From positions 1-64,000 of the forward strand of contig CACKQW010000003.1 of assembly GCA_902602415.1 (NCBI GenBank): DNA of 64,000 nucleotides, written 5' to 3'. The position numbers and the translations under genes are program-made. This stretch comes from an uncultured Bacteroidota bacterium (GTDB lineage: Bacteria; Bacteroidota; Bacteroidia; Flavobacteriales; Flavobacteriaceae). Below, one piece after another: positions 4,947 through 41,527 of this stretch. The notes below the pieces were generated by a model. That model had not been told where the DNA came from, ran no database searches, and saw nothing but the letters and a program-made list of their open reading frames with translations. The first letter of the stretch is position 1, and each line of letters begins with the position of its first letter.

Positions 4947-7292
4947 TTATTCATTTTCGAGATGACGATCAAGTGACTGAAGATCACTGATCAAAACTTG
5001 CCTTGCTTTACTTCCTTCAAAAGGCCCAACTATACCAGCAGCCTCTAATTGATCAATCAATCTACCTGCTCTGTTATAACCTAACTTGAGTTTTCTTTGT
5101 AAAAGTGATGCAGAACCTTGTTGAGCAGTAACTATTACTTCAGCTGCCTCTCTAAATAAAGCATCTCTATCTTCAATACTAATATCAATATTTGTTCCAA
5201 TATCTTCAGAAATGTATTCTGGAAGTTGATAAGCATTAGGATATGCCTTTTGAGAACCAATAAAATCAGTTAATAACTCAATTTCAGGCGTATCAACAAA
5301 TGCACACTGGATTCTAACTAATTCATTGCCTTGAGTAAATAACATATCACCTCTTCCAATTAATTGATCAGCACCAGAACTGTCTAAAATTGTTCTTGAG
5401 TCAATTTTTGAAGTGACTCTGAATGCAATTCTAGCTGGAAAATTTGCTTTAATGACACCTGTAATGACATTAACTGAAGGTCTTTGAGTAGCAATAATTA
5501 GGTGAATTCCTATTGCTCTTGCTAATTGTGCTAATCTCGCAATTGGAGTTTCAACTTCTTTACCAGCTGTCATGATTAGATCAGCAAATTCATCAACAAC
5601 TAAGACAACATAAGGTAAAAACCTGTGTTCATCATTTGGATTTAGTTTTCTGTCTTTGAATTTTTTGTTATACTCAACGATATTTCTGCAAGATGCATTT
5701 TTTAATAGCTCATATCTATTATCCATTTCTATGCACAATGAGTTCAAAGTATTAATTACCTTTTTATTATCAGTGATTATAGCCTCTTCACTATCAGGGA
5801 GTTTAGCTAAATAGTGTCTTTCAATTTTGTTGTATAGAGTTAATTCAACCTTCTTTGGATCAACTAAGACAAATTTTACCTCTGCAGGATGTTTTTTGAA
5901 TAGTAAAGATGAAAGAACAGCATTTAAACCTACTGACTTACCTTGTCCTGTTGCGCCAGCCATAAGTAAGTGAGGCATCCTAGCTAGATCAAAAACTAAA
6001 GTTTCATTGCTGATGGTTTTTCCAATGGCAACAGGTAATTCCATTTCAGATTTTTGAAATTTTTCTGAAGAAATAACAGAATGCATTGAAACCACAGTTG
6101 GATTTTTGTTAGGAACTTCAATACCAATAGTTCCTTTTCCTGGAATGGGCGCAATAATTCTAATTCCTAGTGCAGAAAGTGATAATGCTATATCATCCTC
6201 TAAGTTCTTTATTTTTGAAATTCTGACTCCTGCTTCTGGAATAATCTCGTATAAGGTAACAGTTGGTCCAATTGTAGCTTTTATATTCGAGATTGCAATA
6301 TTATAGTTAGCTAACGTTTCAACAATTTTATTTTTATTTTCTTCTAACTCCTCTTTGTCAATTGTTATTTTTTCAGAATCATATTGTTTCAAAAGTTTGA
6401 GTTTTGGGAATTGGAACTTACTTAGTTCAAGAGTTGGATCAAATTTTCCAAAATTATCTACTAGCTCATCTGAAAGGTTATCAATTTCTGACTTTTCTTC
6501 AATAATTTTTTCAACTTGAATATCTAAATCATCACTGATTTTTTTATCCTCAATTTCAATTTTTTCTGGATTTAATTTAGTAAATTCAAGATTAGTAGAT
6601 ATTACCTCACTTATTTGATTTTCAGAAAAATCATTATTATCATTTGATTCATTTTTTTCAATTTCATCGTATATTTCCTCATCTTCATTATTAGAACTCT
6701 CGTCAATATTATTTTTTTTAAACTGCTTGAAGAAATTTCTGATTTTTTTAAAATCATCAACTCCGATTTTCAGTCTGAAAGTAAAATAAATAAGTGTCAT
6801 GAAAATTATCAAAAATATTATCCCAAGGTTACTAATATATGTGTCTAATAATTTATTTATCTCAAAGCCAATTACTCCAGAAAAAACACTATCAGCGTTG
6901 ATTGATGCAAAAATGATTGAAAAATAAAAAATTAGATAAAATCCCCAAGCCCAATTTTTTAGTAAATTTTTATTTTTTATATCCAGTAAAATGTGAAGTG
7001 CACTTAAAAAAATTAGAAAAGATAAAATAATAGAACTTATTCCAAACCCTTTATATATAAAAAAATCACTTATTCTGGCACCTAATTTTCCTAAAATATT
7101 TGAGTTTATTTCATTTTTATCAAAGAAATTATTTAGTGAGCTCTGATCAATTTCACCTGTGAAAATATATGAAACAAAAGAAGAAAATAGGAATATTGCT
7201 ATAATAATTAGTGCGCTACCAATAAATAACCTTTTGGAGCTAGATAGTTCTTTTTTTTGTTTATTCTTGATAAAAGAAAATATACTTTTCAA
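4947..7292 (-). CDS. ftsK: DNA translocase FtsK
   Basis: FtsK pumps chromosomal DNA through the division septum and helps resolve dimers. The 781-residue protein has four N-terminal membrane helices (about residues 22-45, 78-105, 113-135 and 152-172), a short acidic linker rich in Asp, Glu and Asn (about 195-290), and the motor domain. Walker A is GATGQGKS at about residue 444 and Walker B VLVVDEFADL follows at about 570; IATQRPSVNVITG is also typical. The C-terminal gamma winged helix is present (SASLLQRKLKLGYNRAGRLIDQ, split around residues 730-750), which normally reads polarity sequences. The linker is much shorter than in Escherichia coli. It is the first gene of the operon with lolA, lptG and ribB. 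Confidence 0.96.
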   Translation of the reverse strand: MKSIFSFIKNKQKKELSSSKRLFIGSALIIIAIFLFSSFVSYIFTGEIDQSSLNNFFDKNEINSNILGKLGARISDFFIYKGFGISSIILSFLIFLSALHILLDIKNKNLLKNWAWGFYLIFYFSIIFASINADSVFSGVIGFEINKLLDTYISNLGIIFLIIFMTLIYFTFRLKIGVDDFKKIRNFFKQFKKNNIDESSNNEDEEIYDEIEKNESNDNNDFSENQISEVISTNLEFTKLNPEKIEIEDKKISDDLDIQVEKIIEEKSEIDNLSDELVDNFGKFDPTLELSKFQFPKLKLLKQYDSEKITIDKEELEENKNKIVETLANYNIAISNIKATIGPTVTLYEIIPEAGVRISKIKNLEDDIALSLSALGIRIIAPIPGKGTIGIEVPNKNPTVVSMHSVISSEKFQKSEMELPVAIGKTISNETLVFDLARMPHLLMAGATGQGKSVGLNAVLSSLLFKKHPAEVKFVLVDPKKVELTLYNKIERHYLAKLPDSEEAIITDNKKVINTLNSLCIEMDNRYELLKNASCRNIVEYNKKFKDRKLNPNDEHRFLPYVVLVVDEFADLIMTAGKEVETPIARLAQLARAIGIHLIIATQRPSVNVITGVIKANFPARIAFRVTSKIDSRTILDSSGADQLIGRGDMLFTQGNELVRIQCAFVDTPEIELLTDFIGSQKAYPNAYQLPEYISEDIGTNIDISIEDRDALFREAAEVIVTAQQGSASLLQRKLKLGYNRAGRLIDQLEAAGIVGPFEGSKARQVLISDLQSLDRHLENE

Positions 7293-31042: not shown

Positions 31043-33475
31043 ATGAATAGATATTCCATTTCTTTAATAATTTTCTTTTCATTTATTTTTTTAAACGCGA
31101 ATGAAAAGAATGTCAAAGATTTTGTTGGATTTTTCAATTTCAGTTATGATCAATCAAATGATAAAATATTTCTTATGGTTGATAAAATTGATCATGAATT
31201 TCTCTATGTTAGCTCCCTTGCCACCGGGGTTGGCTCTAATGATATTGGTTTAGACAGAGGTCAACTTGGATCCGAAAGATTAGTAAAATTTATAAAAAGA
31301 GGTAATAAATTGTTATTAATACAACCAAATCTTTATTATCGTGCAGAAACTGAAAATTTGAGTGAGAAAAAAAGTGTTGACCAAGCGTTTGCTAAGTCTG
31401 TTTTGTTTGGATTTGAAATAATTGATAAGTATGAAGATTCTTATAAAATTGATTTTACTTCTTTTCTTAAATATGATAGACATGGAGTTGCAAAAACATT
31501 AAAAAATAAAAATCAGGGATCATATTCGGTTGATCTCTCAAAAAGTTCCATTGAAATGTTTAATACCAAGGCGTTTCCTAGAAATGTTGAATTTGAAGCT
31601 CTACTAACTTTTTCTGGTGATGCTAAAGGAAACTTAGTTCGTAGTGTTGTTCCAGATCCAAATAATATTACGGTAACACAACATCACTCATTTATTCAAT
31701 TGCCAGACAATGATTATCAGCCTAGAAAATTTGACCCAAGGAGTGGGGCTATTTTTATTGAATTTATGGATTATTCAACACCAGTTAATAAAGAAATGGT
31801 TAAAAAATATATTATTAGGCATCGCTTGAAAAAAAAGAATCCAAGTTTAGCAGTTTCAGAACCTGTAGAGCCAATTATTTATTATTTAGATCCAGGAACA
31901 CCTGAACCGGTCAAATCTGCATTAATTGATGGTGCATCCTGGTGGAATGAAGCTTATGAGTCAATTGGTTTTAAAAATGCTTTTCAAGTCAAAGTTTTGC
32001 CTGAAAATATTGATCCAATGGATTGTCGATATAATGTCATTCAATGGGTTCATAGATCAACAAGAGGTTGGAGTTATGGAGCTAGCGTAGTTGATCCTAG
32101 AACAGGAGAAATTATCAAGGGTCATGTTAGTTTAGGAAGTTTAAGAATTAGACAAGATTATATGATTGCACAAGCACTTTCCAAAAACCCTTTTAAAAAT
32201 AAAAGTAATAACGAGAAAATGCTTGATTTAGCACTTTCAAGAATAAGACAGTTAAGTGCACATGAGATTGGTCATACCTTGGGTTTTGTTCACAATTTTG
32301 CAGCTAGCACGAACAATAGATCATCCGTAATGGATTATCCGCACCCTTTAATTGAAATAAAAAACAATGAAATTTATTTTAATAACGCATATGATTCAGG
32401 AATTGGTGAATGGGATAAAATAACTGTAGCTTATAGCTACTCTGAATTTAACGGAAACCAAAATGAAGAGAAGGAATTAAATAATATTCTGAATAATGCA
32501 ACAGCAAAAGGTTTCAGATTTATTAGTGATTATGATGCAAGATCTCTGGATGGTTCTCATGCTTATGCTCATTTATGGGATAATGGAGATGTTGCTCATG
32601 AAGGATTAGATGATGTTATCAACATTCGAAGAATAGCTATCCAAAATTTTTCAGAATTCAATGTCCCAAAAGGGTCTCCTAATTCGGTACTTGAAGATGT
32701 TTTTGTCCCACTATATTTTTTTCATAGATACCAAACAGAAGCTGCAGCAAAAATTATAGCAGGAATGGATTATAATTATTCTTTAACGGGAAGTAATCAA
32801 GGTCAGTTTAGTTACTTAGACAAAAGTACCCAGTTAAATGCTCTTAGTTCTGTAATGAAAACATTAGAAGCTGATTTTTTAGCGATTCCAAAAGAAAAGT
32901 TAGAACTATTTCCGCCCAGAGCATTTGGTTATCCAAGAACGAGAGAATCTTTCAAATCTAATTTAGGTCCTGCTTTTGATCCATTTTCTGTAAGTGAAAC
33001 ATCTGCTGACATGACCTTGAGTTTAATTTTAAGGCCCAAAAGACTCAATAGATTAATTTACCAACACGCATTGGATAATTCTAATTTGAGTTTAAATGAA
33101 TTATATGATTATATTTCTGAAAAAACAATTTTTTTAAAGAAACCCTCTGATTCATCTGGTGAGGATTCATATTTAAATGAAATACAACACATTGTGAATT
33201 TAACTCTGCTAAAAAGGATTTTTTCTGTTATTAATGATGAGACCAGCTCATTTCAGGTTAAGAGTATAAGCAACGATTTTTTAAATAAATTATCAAGGGA
33301 ATTAAGCTCTAAAAAAAACAGGAATTTAAAACTTTCAAAATACACTGATCATTACCTAAAAATGATTCGAGATTTTGAACGTAATCCAAAAGCATATAAA
33401 GTAAAGATTCCATTAAAAATTCCTGATGGATCACCTATTGGAATGGATAATTGTAATTTACACCAATTGAGATGA
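31043..33475 (+). CDS. Exported zinc-dependent metalloprotease (DUF5117/DUF4953 type)
   Basis: The 810-residue protein has a signal peptide (ends near NAN20) and an N-terminal DUF5117-like domain (FFNFSYDQSNDKIFLMVDKI; SLATGVGSNDIGLDRGQLG). The catalytic site is HEIGHTLGFVHNF at about residue 406, an HExxHxxGxxH metzincin zinc motif, with the downstream SVMDYPHP Met-turn. The C-terminal half fits DUF4953 (LHLWDNG-type segments; FVPLYFFHRYQTEAAAKIIAG). Such large proteases are common in Bacteroidota and are thought to be periplasmic or extracellular; the substrate is unknown. Its stop overlaps the threonine aldolase start in ATGA. Confidence 0.88.
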   Translation: MNRYSISLIIFFSFIFLNANEKNVKDFVGFFNFSYDQSNDKIFLMVDKIDHEFLYVSSLATGVGSNDIGLDRGQLGSERLVKFIKRGNKLLLIQPNLYYRAETENLSEKKSVDQAFAKSVLFGFEIIDKYEDSYKIDFTSFLKYDRHGVAKTLKNKNQGSYSVDLSKSSIEMFNTKAFPRNVEFEALLTFSGDAKGNLVRSVVPDPNNITVTQHHSFIQLPDNDYQPRKFDPRSGAIFIEFMDYSTPVNKEMVKKYIIRHRLKKKNPSLAVSEPVEPIIYYLDPGTPEPVKSALIDGASWWNEAYESIGFKNAFQVKVLPENIDPMDCRYNVIQWVHRSTRGWSYGASVVDPRTGEIIKGHVSLGSLRIRQDYMIAQALSKNPFKNKSNNEKMLDLALSRIRQLSAHEIGHTLGFVHNFAASTNNRSSVMDYPHPLIEIKNNEIYFNNAYDSGIGEWDKITVAYSYSEFNGNQNEEKELNNILNNATAKGFRFISDYDARSLDGSHAYAHLWDNGDVAHEGLDDVINIRRIAIQNFSEFNVPKGSPNSVLEDVFVPLYFFHRYQTEAAAKIIAGMDYNYSLTGSNQGQFSYLDKSTQLNALSSVMKTLEADFLAIPKEKLELFPPRAFGYPRTRESFKSNLGPAFDPFSVSETSADMTLSLILRPKRLNRLIYQHALDNSNLSLNELYDYISEKTIFLKKPSDSSGEDSYLNEIQHIVNLTLLKRIFSVINDETSSFQVKSISNDFLNKLSRELSSKKNRNLKLSKYTDHYLKMIRDFERNPKAYKVKIPLKIPDGSPIGMDNCNLHQLR

Positions 33476-34500
33476 TTGATTTAAGAAGTGATACCATAAC
33501 AAAACCATGTAGCAATATGCTTGAGGCAATGCTTAAAGCTAATGTTGGTGATGATGTTTATGGTGAAGACCCCACCGTAAAGCAACTCGAAAAAAAAATA
33601 TGTGATTTTTTTGGAACAGAAATGTCAATGTTTTTTCCCTCTGGAACCATGGCAAATCAAACAGCGATCAAATTACACACCTTGCCAGGTAATCAAGTCA
33701 TAACACATAAGTATTCCCACGTATTTAACTATGAAGGCGGTGGAGGCTCCTTTAATAGTGGAGTATCTTTTAAGCTTCTTGATGGCCCAAAAGGTATTTT
33801 TGAAATAAATGATATGATCAATGCTATAAATCCAAAAAACTTTTATCATGCCCCTTTATCTAAATTAGTTGTTTTGGAGAATACCACTAATAAAGGAGGT
33901 GGAGCGTGCTGGGATGTTGAAATTTTTCATGACATTAAAAAAGTGTGTAAAGACCATGATCTTGGATTGCATATGGACGGTGCCAGGATATGGAATTCAC
34001 TAATAGCAAATAAAAACAATCCACTTATTTATGGAGAAAATTTCGATACAATTTCTGTGTGCTTAAGTAAGGGATTAGGTTGTCCAATTGGATCTGTGCT
34101 TACTGGCAAAAAAGAAATATTAAAAAATGCTATTAGAATTAGAAAAATTTTTGGTGGTGGAATGAGACAGGTTGGATATTTGGCAGCTGCAGGAATTTAC
34201 GCATTAAATAATAATATTGAAAGATTAGCCGAGGATCATAATAAGGCAAAACAAATAGCCAAAGAACTCAAAAAAAAGAATTTTGTGAAAGAATTGAATG
34301 AAGTTGAAACCAATATCATAATTATTGAACTTATTGAAAATTGTAATAAGCAAAATATTATTGACTTTTTTACAGCTCAAAATGTGATCATGGATTGGCA
34401 CTCTATGGGATTAAATAAAATTAGATTGGTAACACATTTAGATTATACAGACAGTGACCACAAAAATTTTCTAGCGATTCTGGATAAATGCGTTATTTAG
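33472..34500 (+). CDS. Low-specificity L-threonine aldolase-like PLP enzyme
   Basis: Threonine aldolase splits threonine or allo-threonine into glycine and acetaldehyde. The 342-residue protein begins MIDLRSDTITKPC, as in the family, and has VGDDVYGEDPTVKQLE near residue 23, FFPSGTMANQTAI near 58, GLHMDGARIWNS near 164 with the PLP-contacting Asp, and SVCLSKGLGCPIGSVL near 195, where Lys at about 199 binds PLP. All key residues are there. Translation is coupled to the metalloprotease through a 4-base ATGA overlap, an odd partner; no shared pathway is evident. Confidence 0.92.
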   Translation: MIDLRSDTITKPCSNMLEAMLKANVGDDVYGEDPTVKQLEKKICDFFGTEMSMFFPSGTMANQTAIKLHTLPGNQVITHKYSHVFNYEGGGGSFNSGVSFKLLDGPKGIFEINDMINAINPKNFYHAPLSKLVVLENTTNKGGGACWDVEIFHDIKKVCKDHDLGLHMDGARIWNSLIANKNNPLIYGENFDTISVCLSKGLGCPIGSVLTGKKEILKNAIRIRKIFGGGMRQVGYLAAAGIYALNNNIERLAEDHNKAKQIAKELKKKNFVKELNEVETNIIIIELIENCNKQNIIDFFTAQNVIMDWHSMGLNKIRLVTHLDYTDSDHKNFLAILDKCVI

Positions 34501-34578: not shown

Positions 34579-35589
34579 ATGCCAGTTAGCAAAGGCGTTT
34601 ACAAAAATTTACTAGAGCTTGTTGGAGATACTCCTCTAATAAACATACGACATCTAACTGAAAAAAATCCTGGCTTATTTTTAGCAAAATTAGAATTAAC
34701 AAACCCAGGTCAATCCCCAAAAGATAGAATTGCATTACACATAATCAATGATGCAGAAAAAAAGGGTTTGCTAAAAAAGGGTAGTACTGTTATCGAAACC
34801 ACGTCTGGTAACACTGGTTTTAGCCTAGCAATGGTATCACTAATTAAAGGTTATAAATGCATTTTGGCTGTATCATCAAAATCTTCCACAGATAAAATAA
34901 ACACCCTTAAAGCGCTTGGTGCTGAAGTACATGTGTGTCCTGCAAATGTTGAGGCTGATGACCCTAGATCTTATTATGAAGTTGCTAAAAAATTAAACAG
35001 GGAAATTGAAGGTTCATTATATATAAATCAATATTTTAATGATTTAAATGCACAAGCACATTATTTAACAACAGGACCTGAAATATGGGAACAAACATCT
35101 GGAAAAATCACCCATTTAGTTGTTTGCAGTGGTACTGGAGGTACTATTTCTGGTGCTGCAAAATTTTTAAAGGAGAAAAATAAAAAAATCAAGATTATTG
35201 GTGTTGATGCTTACGGATCTGTTTTGAAAAAATATCATGAAACAGGTGAATTTGATAAAAATGAAATATACCCATATAAAATTGAGGGTTTGGGTAAAAA
35301 TCTAATACCATCGGTTACTAATTTTGAAGTTATTGATCAATTTATCAAAGTTGGAGATGAAGAAAGCGCAAAATCTGCAAGAGATTTGGTAAAAAAAGAA
35401 GGTATTTTTGGAGGCTATACTACTGGTGCATGCCTGCGGGCTGTTGAAAAACTAATTGAAAAAAAAGAATTTAAAAAGAACGATATAATAGTAATGCTTT
35501 TTCCTGATCATGGCTCAAGATATTTAAGTAAAATATATAATGACAAATGGTTAAATGAACAAGGATTTGAAAAAATTATTTCTAACTAA
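34579..35589 (+). CDS. Cysteine synthase/cystathionine beta-synthase-like PLP enzyme, candidate cysteate synthase
   Basis: The 336-residue fold-type II PLP enzyme has [10 protein letters not shown] near residue 14, [13 protein letters not shown] with PLP Lys48, [12 protein letters not shown] near 75, [16 protein letters not shown] near 185 (phosphate loop) and [16 protein letters not shown] near 280. The C-terminus [19 protein letters not shown] resembles the catalytic core of cystathionine beta-synthase, without regulatory CBS domains. Biochemical options are cysteine synthase, cystathionine synthase, or cysteate synthase using sulfite. The last is favoured only by context: an alpha-oxoamine synthase gene follows after 11 bases. 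That would give the head group of capnine-type sulfonolipids. Confidence 0.85.
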
Positions 35590-35600
35590 ATTATTATACA

Positions 35601-36848
35601 ATGAGAGATTTATTTGACAGAATGTACAAAGACAAAGGCCCACTTGGTAAATGGGCTCAAGTTGCTGAGGGATACTTTGCATTTCCAAAACTGGAGGGTA
35701 GTATTTCAAACAGAATGAAATTTAACGGTAAGGAGGTAATTACGTGGAGTGTTAATGATTACCTTGGTCTTGCTAATATCGATGAAGTTAGAAAAATTGA
35801 TGCAGACGCAGCAAAAAAATATGGATCTGCATATCCAATGGGCGCAAGGTTAATGTCAGGTCACACTGATTTGCACGAAAAATTACAAAATGAGCTTGCA
35901 AAATTTGTTAAAAAAGAGGCAGCTTATGTTCTAAATTTTGGATACCAAGGAATTTTATCAACAATTGATTCATTAGTTAGTAAAAATGATGTGATTGTCT
36001 ATGATATAGATTCACATGCTTGCATTGTCGATGGTGTTAGATTACATTTAGGAAAAAGATTTACATATCAGCATAATGATATGCAGAGTTTAGAAAAGAA
36101 TCTTGTAAGGGCAACTAAAATTGCAAATGAAACTAATGGAGGTATTCTGGTGATTTCTGAAGGAGTTTTTGGCATGAGAGGAGAGCAGGGTAAATTAAAA
36201 GAAATTGTTGCGTTAAAAGAGAAATTTAATTTTCGCTTGCTTGTTGATGACGCACATGGATTTGGCACGTTAGGTAAGACAGGAGCTGGAGCAGGTGAGG
36301 AGCAAGGTGTTCAAGATCAAATTGATGTTTATTTTGCAACCTTTGCAAAGTCTCTTGCAAGCACTGGTGCATTTATTGCTTCTGAAAAAGAAATTATTGA
36401 CTTTTTGAAATATAATATGAGATCACAAGTTTTTGCAAAATCTCTTCAAATGCAGCTTGTTGAAGGAGTTTTAAAAAGGTTAGAGATAATAAAGACAAGA
36501 CCTGAAATTAAACAAAAACTATGGGAAAATGTAAAGAATCTTCAATCAGGACTAAAATCTAGAGGATTTGATATTGGAACTACACAAAGCTGTGTTACGC
36601 CTGTTTATCTAAAAGGATCTGTCCCTGAGGCAATGTGCTTGGTTAAGGATTTAAGAGAAAATTATAAAATATTTTGCTCGATTGTAGTTTACCCTGTTAT
36701 ACCCAAGGGTCTTATTTTACTGAGACTCATACCAACTGCTTCTCATGATATTAATGATATAAATGAAACTTTAGATGCATTTTCTGCTATCAGAGATAAA
36801 TTAGTTTCAGGTGAATATAAAAAGGAATCCTTAAAATTAGTTTTTTGA
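35601..36848 (+). CDS. Alpha-oxoamine synthase, candidate cysteate/serine fatty acyltransferase
   Basis: The 415-residue PLP enzyme condenses an acyl thioester with an amino acid. Signatures: TWSVNDYLGLANIDEV near residue 48, YGSAYPMGARLMSGHTDLHEKLQ near 73 (in parts GARLMSGHTDLHE), SEGVFGMRGEQGKL near 184, LLVDDAHGFGTLGKTGAG near 212, and FATFAKSLASTGAF near 247 with PLP Lys about 250. Relatives are serine palmitoyltransferase, 2-amino-3-ketobutyrate CoA ligase, and the cysteate fatty acyltransferase that makes capnine in Flavobacterium johnsoniae. Pairing with a cysteine-synthase-like gene favours the cysteate enzyme, but serine palmitoyltransferase cannot be excluded. The 3' end overlaps the convergent GNAT gene by 12 bases. 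Confidence 0.88.
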   Translation: MRDLFDRMYKDKGPLGKWAQVAEGYFAFPKLEGSISNRMKFNGKEVITWSVNDYLGLANIDEVRKIDADAAKKYGSAYPMGARLMSGHTDLHEKLQNELAKFVKKEAAYVLNFGYQGILSTIDSLVSKNDVIVYDIDSHACIVDGVRLHLGKRFTYQHNDMQSLEKNLVRATKIANETNGGILVISEGVFGMRGEQGKLKEIVALKEKFNFRLLVDDAHGFGTLGKTGAGAGEEQGVQDQIDVYFATFAKSLASTGAFIASEKEIIDFLKYNMRSQVFAKSLQMQLVEGVLKRLEIIKTRPEIKQKLWENVKNLQSGLKSRGFDIGTTQSCVTPVYLKGSVPEAMCLVKDLRENYKIFCSIVVYPVIPKGLILLRLIPTASHDINDINETLDAFSAIRDKLVSGEYKKESLKLVF

Positions 36849-37964
36849 TAACTTTTTTTTGAAGGTACTTCTAGTTTTAATTAGCTCAGGACTAAAATTT
36901 TCCCAAATTTTATCAATAGAGATGTTATCTATTAGCTCAGGTGTTCTCCTACAAATTTTAATTCCCTTTTTCTTTAATGTTTGAATAAATGAGTTAAATA
37001 TAATTGCTGTTACACCTCTTTTTTGATAATCCGGGTGGATGCCAATGAGATATAAATTTATTTTTTTATTAAAAAGCTTAGAATATAACAGATAAAAAAT
37101 CCCAAAGGGATATAAATAACCTCTTATTTTTTGTAATGCCCAGGCAAAAGAAGGCATGACAATAGCAAATGCAACGAGTTTTTTATTTTCATCTTGAACA
37201 AATTTAATATACTCTGGATTTATAAATTTTATATACTTTTTTTTCATGTATTCCTTTTGTTCTTCATTGATTTTAACAAAAGAGGACAATTTAGAATACG
37301 AATCGTTAAAAAGGTCAAACATTTCATTTGATCTTTTTAAAACCTCAGAAGTTTTTGTAAAGGTTACTTCTTGCAGATTATTTCTTTGTTTTACAACATC
37401 ACTAATTTGCTTATAATATTTCCCGTCAACATTTTTAAATTCAAATATTTTTTCATGGTATTTTTTCTCTTCTACAAACTGGTGCTTGATAAAATGCTTT
37501 TTGTAATATTCGTGATTATATGTGGTGATCATTGTGCCAATTTTATCAAATCCACTTGTCAATACACCCACTTTATCCAAATTTGTAAATCCCATCGGTC
37601 CTTCCATAAACTCTAAGCTATTTTCTCTACCAATCTGATCAATTTTATCAAGTAATTTTTTACTTACCTCATAATCATCAATGAAGTCAAACCAGCCAAA
37701 TCTAATTTTTTTAATTTTGGTAACCTCAACCTCATAATTATTAATAATTGCAACAATTCTTCCAACAACTTTAGACTTCTTGTATGCCAAAAATAAATTA
37801 GTTTTTGATTGTTTGATATTTGGATTTTTTTCCTTGTCAAAATTTTCAATTTCTTGATCAACAATAGGAGGTACCCAAAATTTTGAATTTTTATACAGCT
37901 TAAAAGGGAATTTAATAAACTTTAGAAGCTCATTTTTTGAGTCAACTTTTTTGATAGTAATCAT
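36837..37964 (-). CDS. GNAT-domain protein, possible N-acyltransferase of sphingo/sulfonolipid synthesis
   Basis: The 375-residue protein is a double-GNAT-like protein, longer than ordinary acetyltransferases. Features: FPFKLYKNSKFWVPPIVDQE near residue 19, VGRIVAIINN near 67, FMEGPMGFTNLDKVGVL near 118, and the acyl-CoA-binding region LYLIGIHPDYQKRGVTAIIF near 305. Such proteins occur next to serine-palmitoyltransferase-like genes in Bacteroidota and resemble in size and domain type the bacterial ceramide synthase of Caulobacter. I infer N-acylation of capnine or a sphingoid base; the sequence does not prove it. The start overlaps the upstream outer-membrane protein gene in ATGA. Older annotations sometimes call relatives GTP cyclohydrolase, which nothing here supports. 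Confidence 0.72.
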   Translation of the reverse strand: MITIKKVDSKNELLKFIKFPFKLYKNSKFWVPPIVDQEIENFDKEKNPNIKQSKTNLFLAYKKSKVVGRIVAIINNYEVEVTKIKKIRFGWFDFIDDYEVSKKLLDKIDQIGRENSLEFMEGPMGFTNLDKVGVLTSGFDKIGTMITTYNHEYYKKHFIKHQFVEEKKYHEKIFEFKNVDGKYYKQISDVVKQRNNLQEVTFTKTSEVLKRSNEMFDLFNDSYSKLSSFVKINEEQKEYMKKKYIKFINPEYIKFVQDENKKLVAFAIVMPSFAWALQKIRGYLYPFGIFYLLYSKLFNKKINLYLIGIHPDYQKRGVTAIIFNSFIQTLKKKGIKICRRTPELIDNISIDKIWENFSPELIKTRSTFKKKLSKN

Positions 37965-38833
37965 TCTTTGGAATTTAAATTAAACCTATGACTATATCCA
38001 AAACTGAGGGTGAATATTTTTGGTGTGGTTTTAAAATTTAATGATGATCCAATATCAAGCTGAATGTTTTTATTTATTAAGTATGCGACACCAAGTGCAA
38101 TTTTATTGTCAGCATAGAAGTCACTGATAATGGCTTGATTTTCTATGTAGGAAATAAATCTACCAGTAAATGCATGAGTTAAACTTAAAATATATCCATA
38201 GTCATTTTGCTTGGATCCAATCCTGTCCCCAATTAAATTACAAATCAATACTGATCTCTTGGAAAAGTTGCTTTGTAGTATAATTGAAATAGTTGGAGAA
38301 ATTCCTTTAACCCCATAGGCAGTGTAGGGATTATTTTCAGAATCAATATTTATTGCTGAATATATAGATACCGCAGGAATTAGATTTTTGAATGAAAATT
38401 TTTTATCAGCCCAATAGCTATAGTAATTTGGTTTATCCTCAAGTCCTTTTTTTGGGTCATATACTAAATATTTTGCACCAATTCTTAAAAATTTAAAATT
38501 ACTAACTTCTGATCTTCTGACGGGAACATATCTTAAATCATCAATTTTTTCCATTTGGAAATTTCCATCAATATTTAATTCAAGTTTTTCTAAAAATGCA
38601 CCAAATCTTACTGAAAAATCAATACCTGTTTGCTCGCTCTCATAATTAATTCTATTGTGGCTAGTTTCTGAAAAATAACCTGCATTTTCAAATTGGAGAA
38701 TATTTTTTCCTACAGAAAATGCTCCATGGGAAGAACCAGGTTTATTTGTGTTTATTATTTCCGTGTACTGTGAATAGATATTGTGCACAAGAAATAGATT
38801 TAAGAAAAAAGAAATAAATAGAACTTTATTCAT
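37961..38833 (-). CDS. Putative outer-membrane beta-barrel protein
   Basis: The 290-residue product has a signal peptide (MNKVLFISFFLNLFLVHNIYS) and a mature part of alternating beta strands, starting TEIINTNKPGSSHGAFSVGKNI and ending in FTLSFGYSHRF, with aromatic-terminated strands typical of barrels. It resembles the Phenol_MetA_deg/transporter-like family of Bacteroidota. It is first in a two-gene unit with the GNAT-domain protein (4-base ATGA overlap), so it may handle or export the lipid made nearby; this is inference. It is divergent from the DUF4834 gene across 80 bases. Confidence 0.78.
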   Translation of the reverse strand: MNKVLFISFFLNLFLVHNIYSQYTEIINTNKPGSSHGAFSVGKNILQFENAGYFSETSHNRINYESEQTGIDFSVRFGAFLEKLELNIDGNFQMEKIDDLRYVPVRRSEVSNFKFLRIGAKYLVYDPKKGLEDKPNYYSYWADKKFSFKNLIPAVSIYSAINIDSENNPYTAYGVKGISPTISIILQSNFSKRSVLICNLIGDRIGSKQNDYGYILSLTHAFTGRFISYIENQAIISDFYADNKIALGVAYLINKNIQLDIGSSLNFKTTPKIFTLSFGYSHRFNLNSKE

Positions 38834-38913: not shown

Positions 38914-39141
38914 ATGAAGTTTCTATTTTATCTATTAGTATTTTATTTTTTATTTAGATTAATATCTAGATTTTTTCTTTATTACTTAAAAAGTAAAATT
39001 AATTCAAGTAATTATAACTTTCAGCAAGAAAAAAAAATGAAAAAAGAGGGAGATGTTTCGTTGGACAAGGTTCCTAAAAAAAAGAAACAAAGTTCGGATA
39101 AATTAGGTGAATATGTTGACTATGAAGAGGTTGATGAATAA
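38914..39141 (+). CDS. DUF4834 family small membrane protein
   Basis: The 75-residue protein has an N-terminal membrane helix (MKFLFYLLVFYFLFRLISRF) and a charged cytoplasmic tail with EGDVSLDKVPKKKKQSSDKLGEYVDYEEVDE, in parts KKEGDVSLDKVPK and GEYVDYEEVDE. This helix plus DYEE ending is the DUF4834 pattern of Bacteroidota; no function is known. It is the first gene of a probable operon: the YfhO-like start codon lies inside its last three codons, so translation is coupled. Confidence 0.88.
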   Translation: MKFLFYLLVFYFLFRLISRFFLYYLKSKINSSNYNFQQEKKMKKEGDVSLDKVPKKKKQSSDKLGEYVDYEEVDE

Positions 39142-41527
39142 AAAAATAGATAATATCAAACTTAAATATCTTTTTCGTCATGGTTTAGCGATATTAATTT
39201 TTGCTATAATTTCTGTTCTTTATTTTTTTCCATTATTGGAGGGAAAAAAGATTTTACAAAATGATATTGTTCAGTATTCTGGAATGTCCAAAGAACTTAA
39301 AGATTACCGTTTGGAAAACTCATCTGAGACTTATTGGACCAACTCGGCCTTTTCAGGTATGCCAACTTACCAACTGGGAGCAAAATATGATAATAATTAT
39401 ATTAAGAAAGTTGACTTATTAATTAGATTCCTCCCAAGACCAGCTGATTATCTTTTTTTATATTTTCTAGGGTTTTATGTATTAATGTTTAGTTTAAAAA
39501 TAGAGTACAGGCTAGCAATTCTTGGAGCTCTTTCTTTTGGTTTATCAACCTATTTATTGATAATAATAGGCGCAGGGCACAATGCTAAAGCCCATGCAAT
39601 TGCATACATGCCATTTGTTTTGTCTGGCTTTATTTACATAACAAGAAAAAAATATTTTTTAGGCTTTTTAATGACAACTATTTTTTTGGGGCTTCAAATA
39701 ACATCCAATCATTTTCAAATGACCTATTACTTGATGCTATTGATAAGTATTTTGGGTATTTGGTTTTTGTATAAAAATCTAATAAAAAAGGATTACAAAC
39801 ATATTTTCAATTCAATAGCAATAGTATTAGTTTCCTCAACATTAGCTTTACTGATGAATGCATCTAATCTTTTGGCTACTTACGAATATTCAAAATATTC
39901 AACAAGGGGAAATGCATCGACTTTGACTATTAATCCTGACGGTTCAACAAAGGAGATTTCTAAAGGTTTAGATTATGATTATATAACACAGTGGAGCTAT
40001 GGATTTTTTGAAACTTTTAATTTATTTATACCCCGAATAGTTGGCGGTGGATCATCTGAAGAATTAGGAAAAAATTCATCTTTTTACAAGTTTTTAGTTA
40101 CGAATGGATACAACAATATAGATGCGTTAAATATTGTTAAAAATTCACCTACTTATTGGGGGGATCAACCATTTGTAGAAGCACCTGCATACATTGGAAT
40201 TGCTGTGTTTTTTCTCTTTGTATTTTCTGTTTTTCTATATCGTGGAAAACATCTTGTTTGGATCCTTTCAGCTATATTCTTATCTCTCATGCTTTCCTAC
40301 GGAAAAAATTTAAATTTATTAACTGAATTTTTTATTAATAATATTCCTCTGTATAACAAATTTCGCGCTGTAGCATCTATTCAGGTTATTCTTGAGCTTT
40401 GTGTACCTATTTTGTCAATTTTTGGCTTGCAACAACTTTTTGATTCAGGTGTTTCAAATAAGAAAAAATTAAAAGCATTAACATATACATTTATTTTTTT
40501 CATTGGAATACTATTGTTTCTGCTTGGTGTGATGTCTAGTTTAAAATTTTCCGGTGCCTCTGATCAAATGTTAGGGCAAGAAATTATTTCAGTATTGATT
40601 GAAGACAGGAAATCTATATATTCTTCGCAGCTGTTCAGAACTTTCTTATACGTAATTGCGTGCAGCTTGATTTTATTTTTATTTATAAAAAATAAGCTTT
40701 CAAAAAATTCTCTGATCATTTCATTGGCTGTTATTATATTATTTGATTTGATTAGTTTTTCTAAAGTATATATCAACGAGAGTAATTTTACTGATAAAAA
40801 ATATGTTGATTTCCCTTATAAAATGGATATAATATATAATCAAATAAAGGAAGATCAGTCTGATTTTAGAATTTTAGATTTGACAACCAGTTCTACTAAA
40901 CCAAATTATTTTTTTAATTCAGTTCTTGGATACCATGCTGCTAAACTAGGCAGATATCAAGAGATAATTGATTTTTATCTTTCCAAAAACAATCTAAATG
41001 TGTTAAGTATGTTAAACACTAAATATATCTTATATAATGATTCAATTGGAACTAAAATATTTACCAATGATATAGCGCCAGGAAGTGCATGGTTTGTTAC
41101 AGAAAATGTAAATGTAAAAAATGACAATGAAGAAATTTTATCATTAGCTGCTTTGGAATTCATGAATTCATCCGTTTCACAAAAAATAGAAGATAAAAAT
41201 TATAATAACAGAATTTATAATATTGAACTTGTTGATAAGAAGCCTAATTATTTAAAATATAAAGCAAAAACTGATGAAAAAGGATTAGTTGTATTCTCTG
41301 AAGTTTATTATCCACAAGGTTGGGTGTCATTAATTAACGGAGTAGCTGTTGATCATTTTCAAGTAAATTACATTTTGAGAGGAATGGAGATTCCTGAAGG
41401 AGAACATGTTATTGAATTTATTTTTGATCCAAAGGTTGTTAAAACTGGTTCTACTGTAAGCCTTTTTGGATCTATTGGTTTTTTACTCTTTTTTATTGTT
41501 GGAATTTATATAAAATCAAGAAATTGA
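39134..41527 (+). CDS. YfhO-like multispanning membrane protein
   Basis: The 797-residue protein has about 12-14 transmembrane segments and a C-terminal soluble domain from about residue 560. The loop motif NDIVQYSGMSKELKDYR near residue 52 and SAFSGMPTYQLG near 80 are family markers, and the end, VVFSEVYYPQGWVSLINGVAVD, is the typical YfhO tail. YfhO proteins resemble GT-C glycosyltransferases and in Gram-positives take part in glycosylating cell-envelope polymers. Here the neighbour is a glycosyltransferase, consistent with envelope glycan work. I use the ATG at 39134, which overlaps the DUF4834 stop by 8 bases. Confidence 0.88.
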   Translation: MNKKIDNIKLKYLFRHGLAILIFAIISVLYFFPLLEGKKILQNDIVQYSGMSKELKDYRLENSSETYWTNSAFSGMPTYQLGAKYDNNYIKKVDLLIRFLPRPADYLFLYFLGFYVLMFSLKIEYRLAILGALSFGLSTYLLIIIGAGHNAKAHAIAYMPFVLSGFIYITRKKYFLGFLMTTIFLGLQITSNHFQMTYYLMLLISILGIWFLYKNLIKKDYKHIFNSIAIVLVSSTLALLMNASNLLATYEYSKYSTRGNASTLTINPDGSTKEISKGLDYDYITQWSYGFFETFNLFIPRIVGGGSSEELGKNSSFYKFLVTNGYNNIDALNIVKNSPTYWGDQPFVEAPAYIGIAVFFLFVFSVFLYRGKHLVWILSAIFLSLMLSYGKNLNLLTEFFINNIPLYNKFRAVASIQVILELCVPILSIFGLQQLFDSGVSNKKKLKALTYTFIFFIGILLFLLGVMSSLKFSGASDQMLGQEIISVLIEDRKSIYSSQLFRTFLYVIACSLILFLFIKNKLSKNSLIISLAVIILFDLISFSKVYINESNFTDKKYVDFPYKMDIIYNQIKEDQSDFRILDLTTSSTKPNYFFNSVLGYHAAKLGRYQEIIDFYLSKNNLNVLSMLNTKYILYNDSIGTKIFTNDIAPGSAWFVTENVNVKNDNEEILSLAALEFMNSSVSQKIEDKNYNNRIYNIELVDKKPNYLKYKAKTDEKGLVVFSEVYYPQGWVSLINGVAVDHFQVNYILRGMEIPEGEHVIEFIFDPKVVKTGSTVSLFGSIGFLLFFIVGIYIKSRN

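Follow-up and report, generated by a model that had tools for sequence, protein, structure and literature searches.

We analysed a 64,000-nucleotide stretch of DNA (the window) from an uncultured bacterium of the family Flavobacteriaceae (assembly GCA_902602415.1, contig CACKQW010000003.1), in which four genes at positions 34579-38833 likely belong to a cassette for the synthesis of sulfonolipids, or capnine lipids. In some Bacteroidota these are described as main lipids of the outer membrane; they have been linked to gliding, have effects on macrophages, and induce choanoflagellates to form colonies (PMC12045153, PMC10191378, PMC3463246). The draft genome that bears the window, which is part of its contig C3, is 1.27 Mb in size and 74% complete, and it shares its family (f1) with a Psychroflexus genome, consistent with Flavobacteriaceae. 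A check of the window's open reading frames found all four frames of the locus intact, in the arrangement given by a first-pass annotation of the sequence, whose interpretation is supported overall by the analysis presented here. The four genes and the basis of each assignment are as follows:

34579-35589, forward strand: capA, predicted cysteate synthase (pyridoxal phosphate (PLP) enzyme of the cysteine-synthase fold), 336 amino acids; NF053679, PDB 9k2p, genus orthologues in the same place
35601-36848, forward strand: capB/sulA, predicted cysteate fatty acyltransferase (alpha-oxoamine synthase), 415 amino acids; PDB 28eh and 7u7h, Lys281 site
36837-37964, reverse strand: proposed N-acyltransferase for sulfonolipids, a GNAT in the bacterial ceramide-synthase family, 375 amino acids; hhalign, co-occurrence with capB, tree
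37961-38833, reverse strand: outer-membrane barrel gene (PF13557, Phenol_MetA_deg family), 290 amino acids; Pfam 75.9 bits, neighbour of the GNAT gene

The capA and capB genes lie on the same strand with 11 bases between them, and the GNAT gene faces capB such that their 3' ends overlap by 12 bases, both as first annotated. The first-pass wording could be read as a fusion of the GNAT with the barrel; the two are separate genes, the barrel gene lying upstream of the GNAT gene on the same strand and overlapping its start by 4 bases. Because these two genes overlap, they are probably co-transcribed. Pfam matches for the other three products were PALP for gene 1 (247.3 bits), Aminotran_1_2 for gene 2 (121.7 bits), and Acetyltransf_1 for the GNAT (21.6 bits, cut-off 20.7). 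The arrangement goes beyond chance: the order of capA, capB, and the facing GNAT and barrel genes is kept in both further genomes of the genus that were drawn (L264 and L265). We also examined named CapB loci, consisting of the best 80 of at least 588 from a scan of named genomes. A capA gene was found in 79 of these loci, in 78 of them on the same strand and less than 1 kb upstream of capB, while 49 loci held the GNAT gene, which was convergent and less than 1 kb downstream of capB in 41. A barrel gene lay within 1.5 kb of the GNAT gene in all 49.

Cysteate synthase and cysteate fatty acyltransferase genes

Family matches identify gene 1 as a cysteate synthase of the CapA type, a known kind of enzyme; sulfite is the donor in the CapA reaction. 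Its best NCBIfam model was that of cysteate synthase (NF053679, 577.7 bits), followed by cystathionine beta-synthase (CBS; 379.4 bits) and cysteine synthases (304.7 bits and lower); with the cysteate synthase model ahead of those of CBS, CysK, and CysM, the earlier proposal that this enzyme supplies cysteate is supported. The CapA orthologues at the same locus in two relatives scored 660 and 650.3 bits against NF053679, above its curated cut-off of 600, while a paralogue of the same fold in the window's own genome (contig C12, L143) scored 478.2 bits, and gene 1 therefore stands with CapA. The closest solved chain was PDB 9k2p, with 467 bits compared to 270 for the best CBS, a margin of 197. 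CapA orthologues of at least 440 bits were present in 98 of 296 Flavobacteriales genomes, all 98 of which also encode CapB. The CapA of relatives is reported to make cysteate from phosphoserine (PMC10191378).

On the same kind of evidence gene 2 is a CapB/SulA, likewise a known kind of enzyme. Among solved structures it scored 667 bits with 28eh, which is named a cysteate-C-fatty acyltransferase, and 550 with 7u7h, compared to 244 for the serine palmitoyltransferase (SPT) 3a2b; scores to KBL and BioF were no higher, leaving a margin of 423 bits. We take 7u7h to be SulA of Alistipes finegoldii, as by our count its residues match the numbering published for SulA once shifted by 20. Lys281 of SulA, in place of the Ala of SPT, is described as the one clear active-site difference between these enzymes (PMC9304779), and the window CapB carries Lys at this site (RSQVFAKSL, compared to RSVMFSASM in 3a2b). 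A motif search recovered this Lys in 80 of the 80 named CapB loci; across 16 SPT loci the same search found the SPT form with Ala in five and did not find the motif in the other 11. Together, the structure scores and the Lys where SPT has Ala favour the first-pass view that the alpha-oxoamine synthase condenses cysteate with a fatty acyl group. Separately, a plasmid of Legionella lytica (NZ_CP071528.1, 317355-318581) encodes a synthase 43% identical to CapB.

We also considered whether genes 1 and 2 are instead a plain cysteine synthase or CBS and an SPT or KBL, that is, ordinary enzymes of amino-acid or sphingolipid metabolism. Both folds are common, CapA falls 22 bits short of the NF053679 cut-off, and in NCBIfam gene 2 matches an SPT model best (298.5 bits, well below the cut-off of 640), with no CapB model among the matches. 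Nonetheless, the CapA model leads that of CBS by 198 bits, the margins among solved structures are large for both genes, and the Lys281 site and the pairing of capA with capB on one strand in nearly all named loci point the same way. We consider this alternative highly improbable and dropped it on the NCBIfam scores, the PDB scores, and the Lys281 site.

Both genes have counterparts in characterised systems. The capnine pathway has been described with CapA and CapB of Capnocytophaga ochracea and CapC of Ornithobacterium rhinotracheale (Liu et al. 2022, as quoted in PMC10191378, PMC12927429, and PMC11211663), and by sequence family genes 1 and 2 correspond to CapA and CapB, which in C. ochracea have consecutive accessions (PMC12927429). 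The window differs in that a GNAT gene adjoins the pair, whereas the set as quoted in these sources names no N-acyltransferase, and in that CapC lies outside the cassette. SulA, the cysteate acyl-acyl carrier protein transferase of A. finegoldii (PMC9304779), resembles the window CapB in the kept Lys281 site as well as in overall score, although Alistipes is reported to have an archaeal-type cysteate synthase in place of CapA (PMC10191378).

Kinship of the GNAT with bacterial ceramide synthases

Curated models specific to the GNAT were sought in Pfam and NCBIfam, where only generic GNAT models matched, and a search of solved structures returned only two weak GNAT matches (E 0.09 and 0.47). Profile comparison with hhalign matched the window's GNAT family over its full length to four proteobacterial proteins at the position of the ceramide synthase CerS (probability 100, E 5e-44, 364 columns), namely the Roseomonas protein at the place of CC_1154 and three relatives. 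Pairwise identity to the three that were compared was 20-24%. CerS is CC_1154 of Caulobacter crescentus, a full-length GNAT-type protein (PMC11324152), and the Roseomonas protein stood in for CC_1154 itself in this comparison. In Roseomonas marmotae the gene order is LptF/G, LptF/G, GNAT, nucleotidyltransferase, phosphocholine cytidylyltransferase, acyl-AMP ligase, and epimerase; the Caulobacter counterpart is reported as CC_1156, CC_1155, CC_1154, CC_1153, and CC_1152, with aasR and cerR (PMC11324152). By this published order, the Roseomonas GNAT sits at the CerS place, between the counterparts of lptG2 and CC_1153.

A translated search of plasmids recovered distant relatives of the GNAT within sphingolipid clusters on plasmids of Roseomonas, Diaphorobacter, Rahnella, and Aureispira, together with other matches, such as one in Bacteroides finegoldii, that lie outside such clusters. 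A further relative was seen in an Escherichia coli record (NZ_CP141089.1, L093, 2916690-2935676), beside an SPT-like synthase, a CerR-like epimerase, and an acyl-AMP ligase, by similarity a ceramide-type cluster. For relatives of the GNAT in Bacteroidota, SPT adjoined the gene in 16 of 20 loci read, these loci having been chosen partly for that feature.

We then reconstructed a GNAT tree of 72 rows, which omits three fragments shorter than 330 residues and retains 19 of 55 CapB-linked rows. One broken GNAT among the 49 had been left out beforehand, and 36 of the remaining 48 were aligned with the window protein. The tree contains a fully supported group of 19, all of them SPT-linked and including the proteobacterial proteins, and a second group of 53 that includes the window; within the latter, a subgroup of 32 (support 100/98) holds all CapB-linked rows. 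Two GNATs of the second group that fall outside this subgroup (L086 and L112) lie directly beside SPT, L112 also with a CerR-like gene. Since members stand beside both CapB and SPT, the GNAT family adjoins both kinds of long-chain-base synthase. The window GNAT is set apart from CerS by its low identity, by its placement in a separate half of the tree, and by its linkage to CapB, not SPT. Profile similarity over the full length, synteny, and co-occurrence support the suggestion in the first-pass annotation of a resemblance between the GNAT and bacterial ceramide synthase, and we interpret the protein as a branch of the bacterial ceramide-synthase family with a putative role in long-chain-base N-acylation. 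Three same-family GNATs from family f37 (L103, L109, and L113) were observed beside genes that on reading of the sequence appear ketoacyl-synthase-like and small dehydratase-like.

Pairing of the GNAT with capB and the proposed pathway

The limit for a GNAT orthologue was placed at 246 bits after a gap between 246.6 and 188.6 bits had been seen. With this limit, CapB was present in 146 of the 296 Flavobacteriales genomes and the GNAT orthologue in 105, every one of which also has CapB; the orthologue occurred in none of the 150 CapB-negative genomes. When one CapB place was used per genome, with further copies dropped, 48 of 50 genomes of the window's family had both GNAT and CapB. Of these 48 pairs, 27 were less than 800 bases apart, all of them convergent, ten more lay within 10 kb, and 11 were apart. 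At a threshold of 1e-10, 356 of 388 genomes of the window's family had a GNAT match.

Based on kinship, gene order, and distribution, the GNAT is probably the enzyme that adds the second fatty chain to sulfonolipids. In the proposed pathway, CapA would convert phosphoserine to L-cysteate, CapB would join cysteate with a fatty acyl thioester to give 3-ketocapnine, a short-chain dehydrogenase/reductase (SDR) encoded elsewhere would reduce 3-ketocapnine, and the GNAT would place a second acyl chain on the amino group, yielding an N-acyl sulfonolipid of the sulfobacin type. The CapA and CapB steps have strong family evidence, and the CapB reaction is described in the literature as the formation of 3-ketocapnine from cysteate and an acyl thioester (PMC9304779). 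We infer the action of the GNAT in this pathway, its substrate (capnine or 3-ketocapnine), and its acyl donor. That the locus is a sulfonolipid cassette with CapA, CapB, an SDR elsewhere, and the GNAT as N-acyltransferase is, in our judgement, the likely explanation, and one we hold with good confidence.

The 34579-38833 cassette has no 3-ketocapnine reductase gene. The strongest candidate is encoded on a different contig (G000:C6:72828-73631), and its best model is that of 3-ketodihydrosphingosine reductase (NF049977, 248.5 bits). Its location on a separate contig agrees with what has been reported for two other bacteria, where kcr does not cluster with the genes of the first two steps (PMC11211663). 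An SDR gene does stand next to capB in two loci of other families, L083 and L085, in the latter between capA and capB. The capA-SDR-capB row of L085 (family f10) also includes a gene that reads as a JmjC-like cupin (5402-6268), which might hydroxylate the lipid or a precursor.

Several observations weigh against this interpretation, in addition to the two NCBIfam shortfalls given above. The reductase candidate scores below the NF049977 cut-off of 400, and the order of acylation and reduction is described as disputed (PMC9304779). The co-occurrence of GNAT and CapB comes from one order and is uncorrected for shared descent, and in families other than that of the window 56 of 57 GNAT-capB pairs are not adjacent; the exception is L083, where the two genes are convergent, the SDR gene lies beside capB, and the barrel has no match. 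The genomes of the two SPT-adjacent GNATs, L086 and L112 (G013 and G324), also carry CapB elsewhere, so that their SPT linkage is silent on the base used. At the level of the phylum, some genomes that have no CapB-level match, for example in family f30, do carry GNATs of 240-290 bits, and the wider GNAT family therefore has other duties. To the same side belong the CapB-positive genomes in which the GNAT was not found.

capB genomes without the GNAT and alternative explanations

Of the 146 CapB-positive Flavobacteriales genomes, 41 yielded no GNAT orthologue. A distant CerS-like family member of at least 265 bits was present in 22 of them; the remaining 19 carry neither, and ten of these are 96-100% complete. 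In the five loci of such CerS-like GNATs that were read (L244-L247 and L251), the GNAT gene and an SDR gene, the latter encoding 266-267 residues, are arranged head to head. Among the named loci, a whole-genome GNAT search of the 31 genomes that lack the gene at the locus left 22 without any match: all five of Psychroflexus (L144-L148) and 17 of the other 26, nine of which had a GNAT elsewhere. The 17, several of which are drafts, comprise three Salegentibacter, four Mesonia, three Gramella/Christiangramia, two Salinimicrobium, one each of Zunongwangia, Gillisia, and Dokdonia, and two Flavobacteriaceae bins (L149-L153, L155, L157, L158, L161, L164, L166, L171, L175, L210, L214, L218, and L222). 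All eight control genomes were matched, one with its gene in pieces. A split GNAT gene, due to decay or sequencing error, was seen in Lacinutrix neustonica (L201). These 22 genomes show that CapB occurs in cells without the GNAT. Capnocytophaga is known for free capnine; G039 and G236, the two members of the window's family in the Flavobacteriales sample that have CapB and no GNAT, were considered as Capnocytophaga, and this was rejected, the CapB of G039 being identical to that of Psychroflexus curvus.

In 11 of the GNAT-less loci, from Salegentibacter, Mesonia, Gramella/Christiangramia, Zunongwangia, and Gillisia, the barrel gene lies downstream of capB, within 350 bases in ten, indicating that the GNAT is missing from between capB and the barrel. 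A replacement gene was sought by eye in nine GNAT-less loci and none stood out, most proteins there being unannotated. The loci that keep capB and the barrel in genomes with no GNAT anywhere would also fit a different explanation, namely that CapA and CapB make capnine while the GNAT is a true ceramide synthase acting on sphinganine from SPT, or acylates some other amine, and owes its place to an inherited order with a block of barrel and YfhO-like genes. The SPT linkage of GNAT relatives is consistent with this, as are two genomes (G231 and G002; L077 and L078) in which the barrel and YfhO genes, and not capB, accompany the GNAT. However, an SPT query at E 1e-60 against the window's own genome, itself 74% complete, matched CapB alone, every GNAT carrier in the order has CapB, and in L083 the GNAT and capB are paired with no barrel match. 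We therefore regard the ceramide-synthase explanation as unlikely, while giving it more weight than the other alternatives.

The position of the barrel gene raises another possibility: the pathway's main partner could be the barrel protein instead of the GNAT, exporting the sulfonolipid or handling it at the surface, with the GNAT in an accessory role in which it modifies the barrel protein or its cargo. The overlap of the barrel gene with the GNAT start, its proximity to the GNAT in all 49 named loci that hold one, and its persistence downstream of capB in the 11 loci would be expected in this case. On the other hand, neighbourhoods of capB with GNAT (L083) and of SPT with GNAT (L086 and L112) have no barrel match, 20 of the 31 named loci that lack the GNAT lack the barrel as well, and the kin of the GNAT sit in lipid clusters. 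PF13557 is moreover a broad family, and the Pfam match thus tells nothing of lipid cargo. We consider this possibility quite improbable. For the first-pass suggestion that the barrel handles the product, the support comes from gene order.

Returning to the GNAT as sulfonolipid N-acyltransferase, a more far-reaching version of this proposal would make it the missing dedicated N-acyltransferase of Bacteroidota, a CerS-family branch working with CapB and not SPT, and would hold that Psychroflexus, Salegentibacter, Mesonia, Gramella/Christiangramia, Zunongwangia, Salinimicrobium, and Gillisia lost the GNAT and kept capA and capB. These seven flavobacterial genera are close kin. With the GNAT lost and capA and capB kept, such cells would have either free, deacylated capnine in their membranes or an unrelated recruited enzyme. 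We put this version forward tentatively, with somewhat more doubt than belief.

Two genes that flank the cassette provide context and are not claimed for the pathway:

39113-41527, forward strand: YfhO-like membrane protein gene; weak PF09586 match, 24.1 bits (cut-off 28.5)
33472-34500, forward strand: GntG-family PLP aldolase gene, upstream; NCBIfam NF041359, 340 bits (cut-off 230)

A YfhO-like gene, often the next neighbour of the barrel gene, is present in 46 of the 49 named loci with a GNAT. A relative of the GntG aldolase was found in one of 20 other loci compared, where it does not adjoin capA, and in five of the 20 its place is taken by a member of a gene cluster that reads as prolyl oligopeptidase, with a Pfam match for the one in L149. 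Further upstream on the same strand, a Met-zincin gene (DUF4953/DUF5117) overlaps the aldolase gene by 4 bases (31043-34500 for the two).

CapA and CapB are already known, and the GNAT is put forward here as a CerS-family enzyme allied to CapB. Enzymes have been published for three of the four steps of sulfonolipid synthesis, according to one account (PMC11211663). The open-licence literature that we searched, in the parts available to us and with subscription journals and preprints outside its scope, names no gene for a sulfonolipid N-acyltransferase and describes the N-acylation step without one. A specific and conserved GNAT candidate makes this step testable and would help to decide whether acylation or reduction comes first, and the genera that lack the GNAT may serve as natural knock-outs for comparison.

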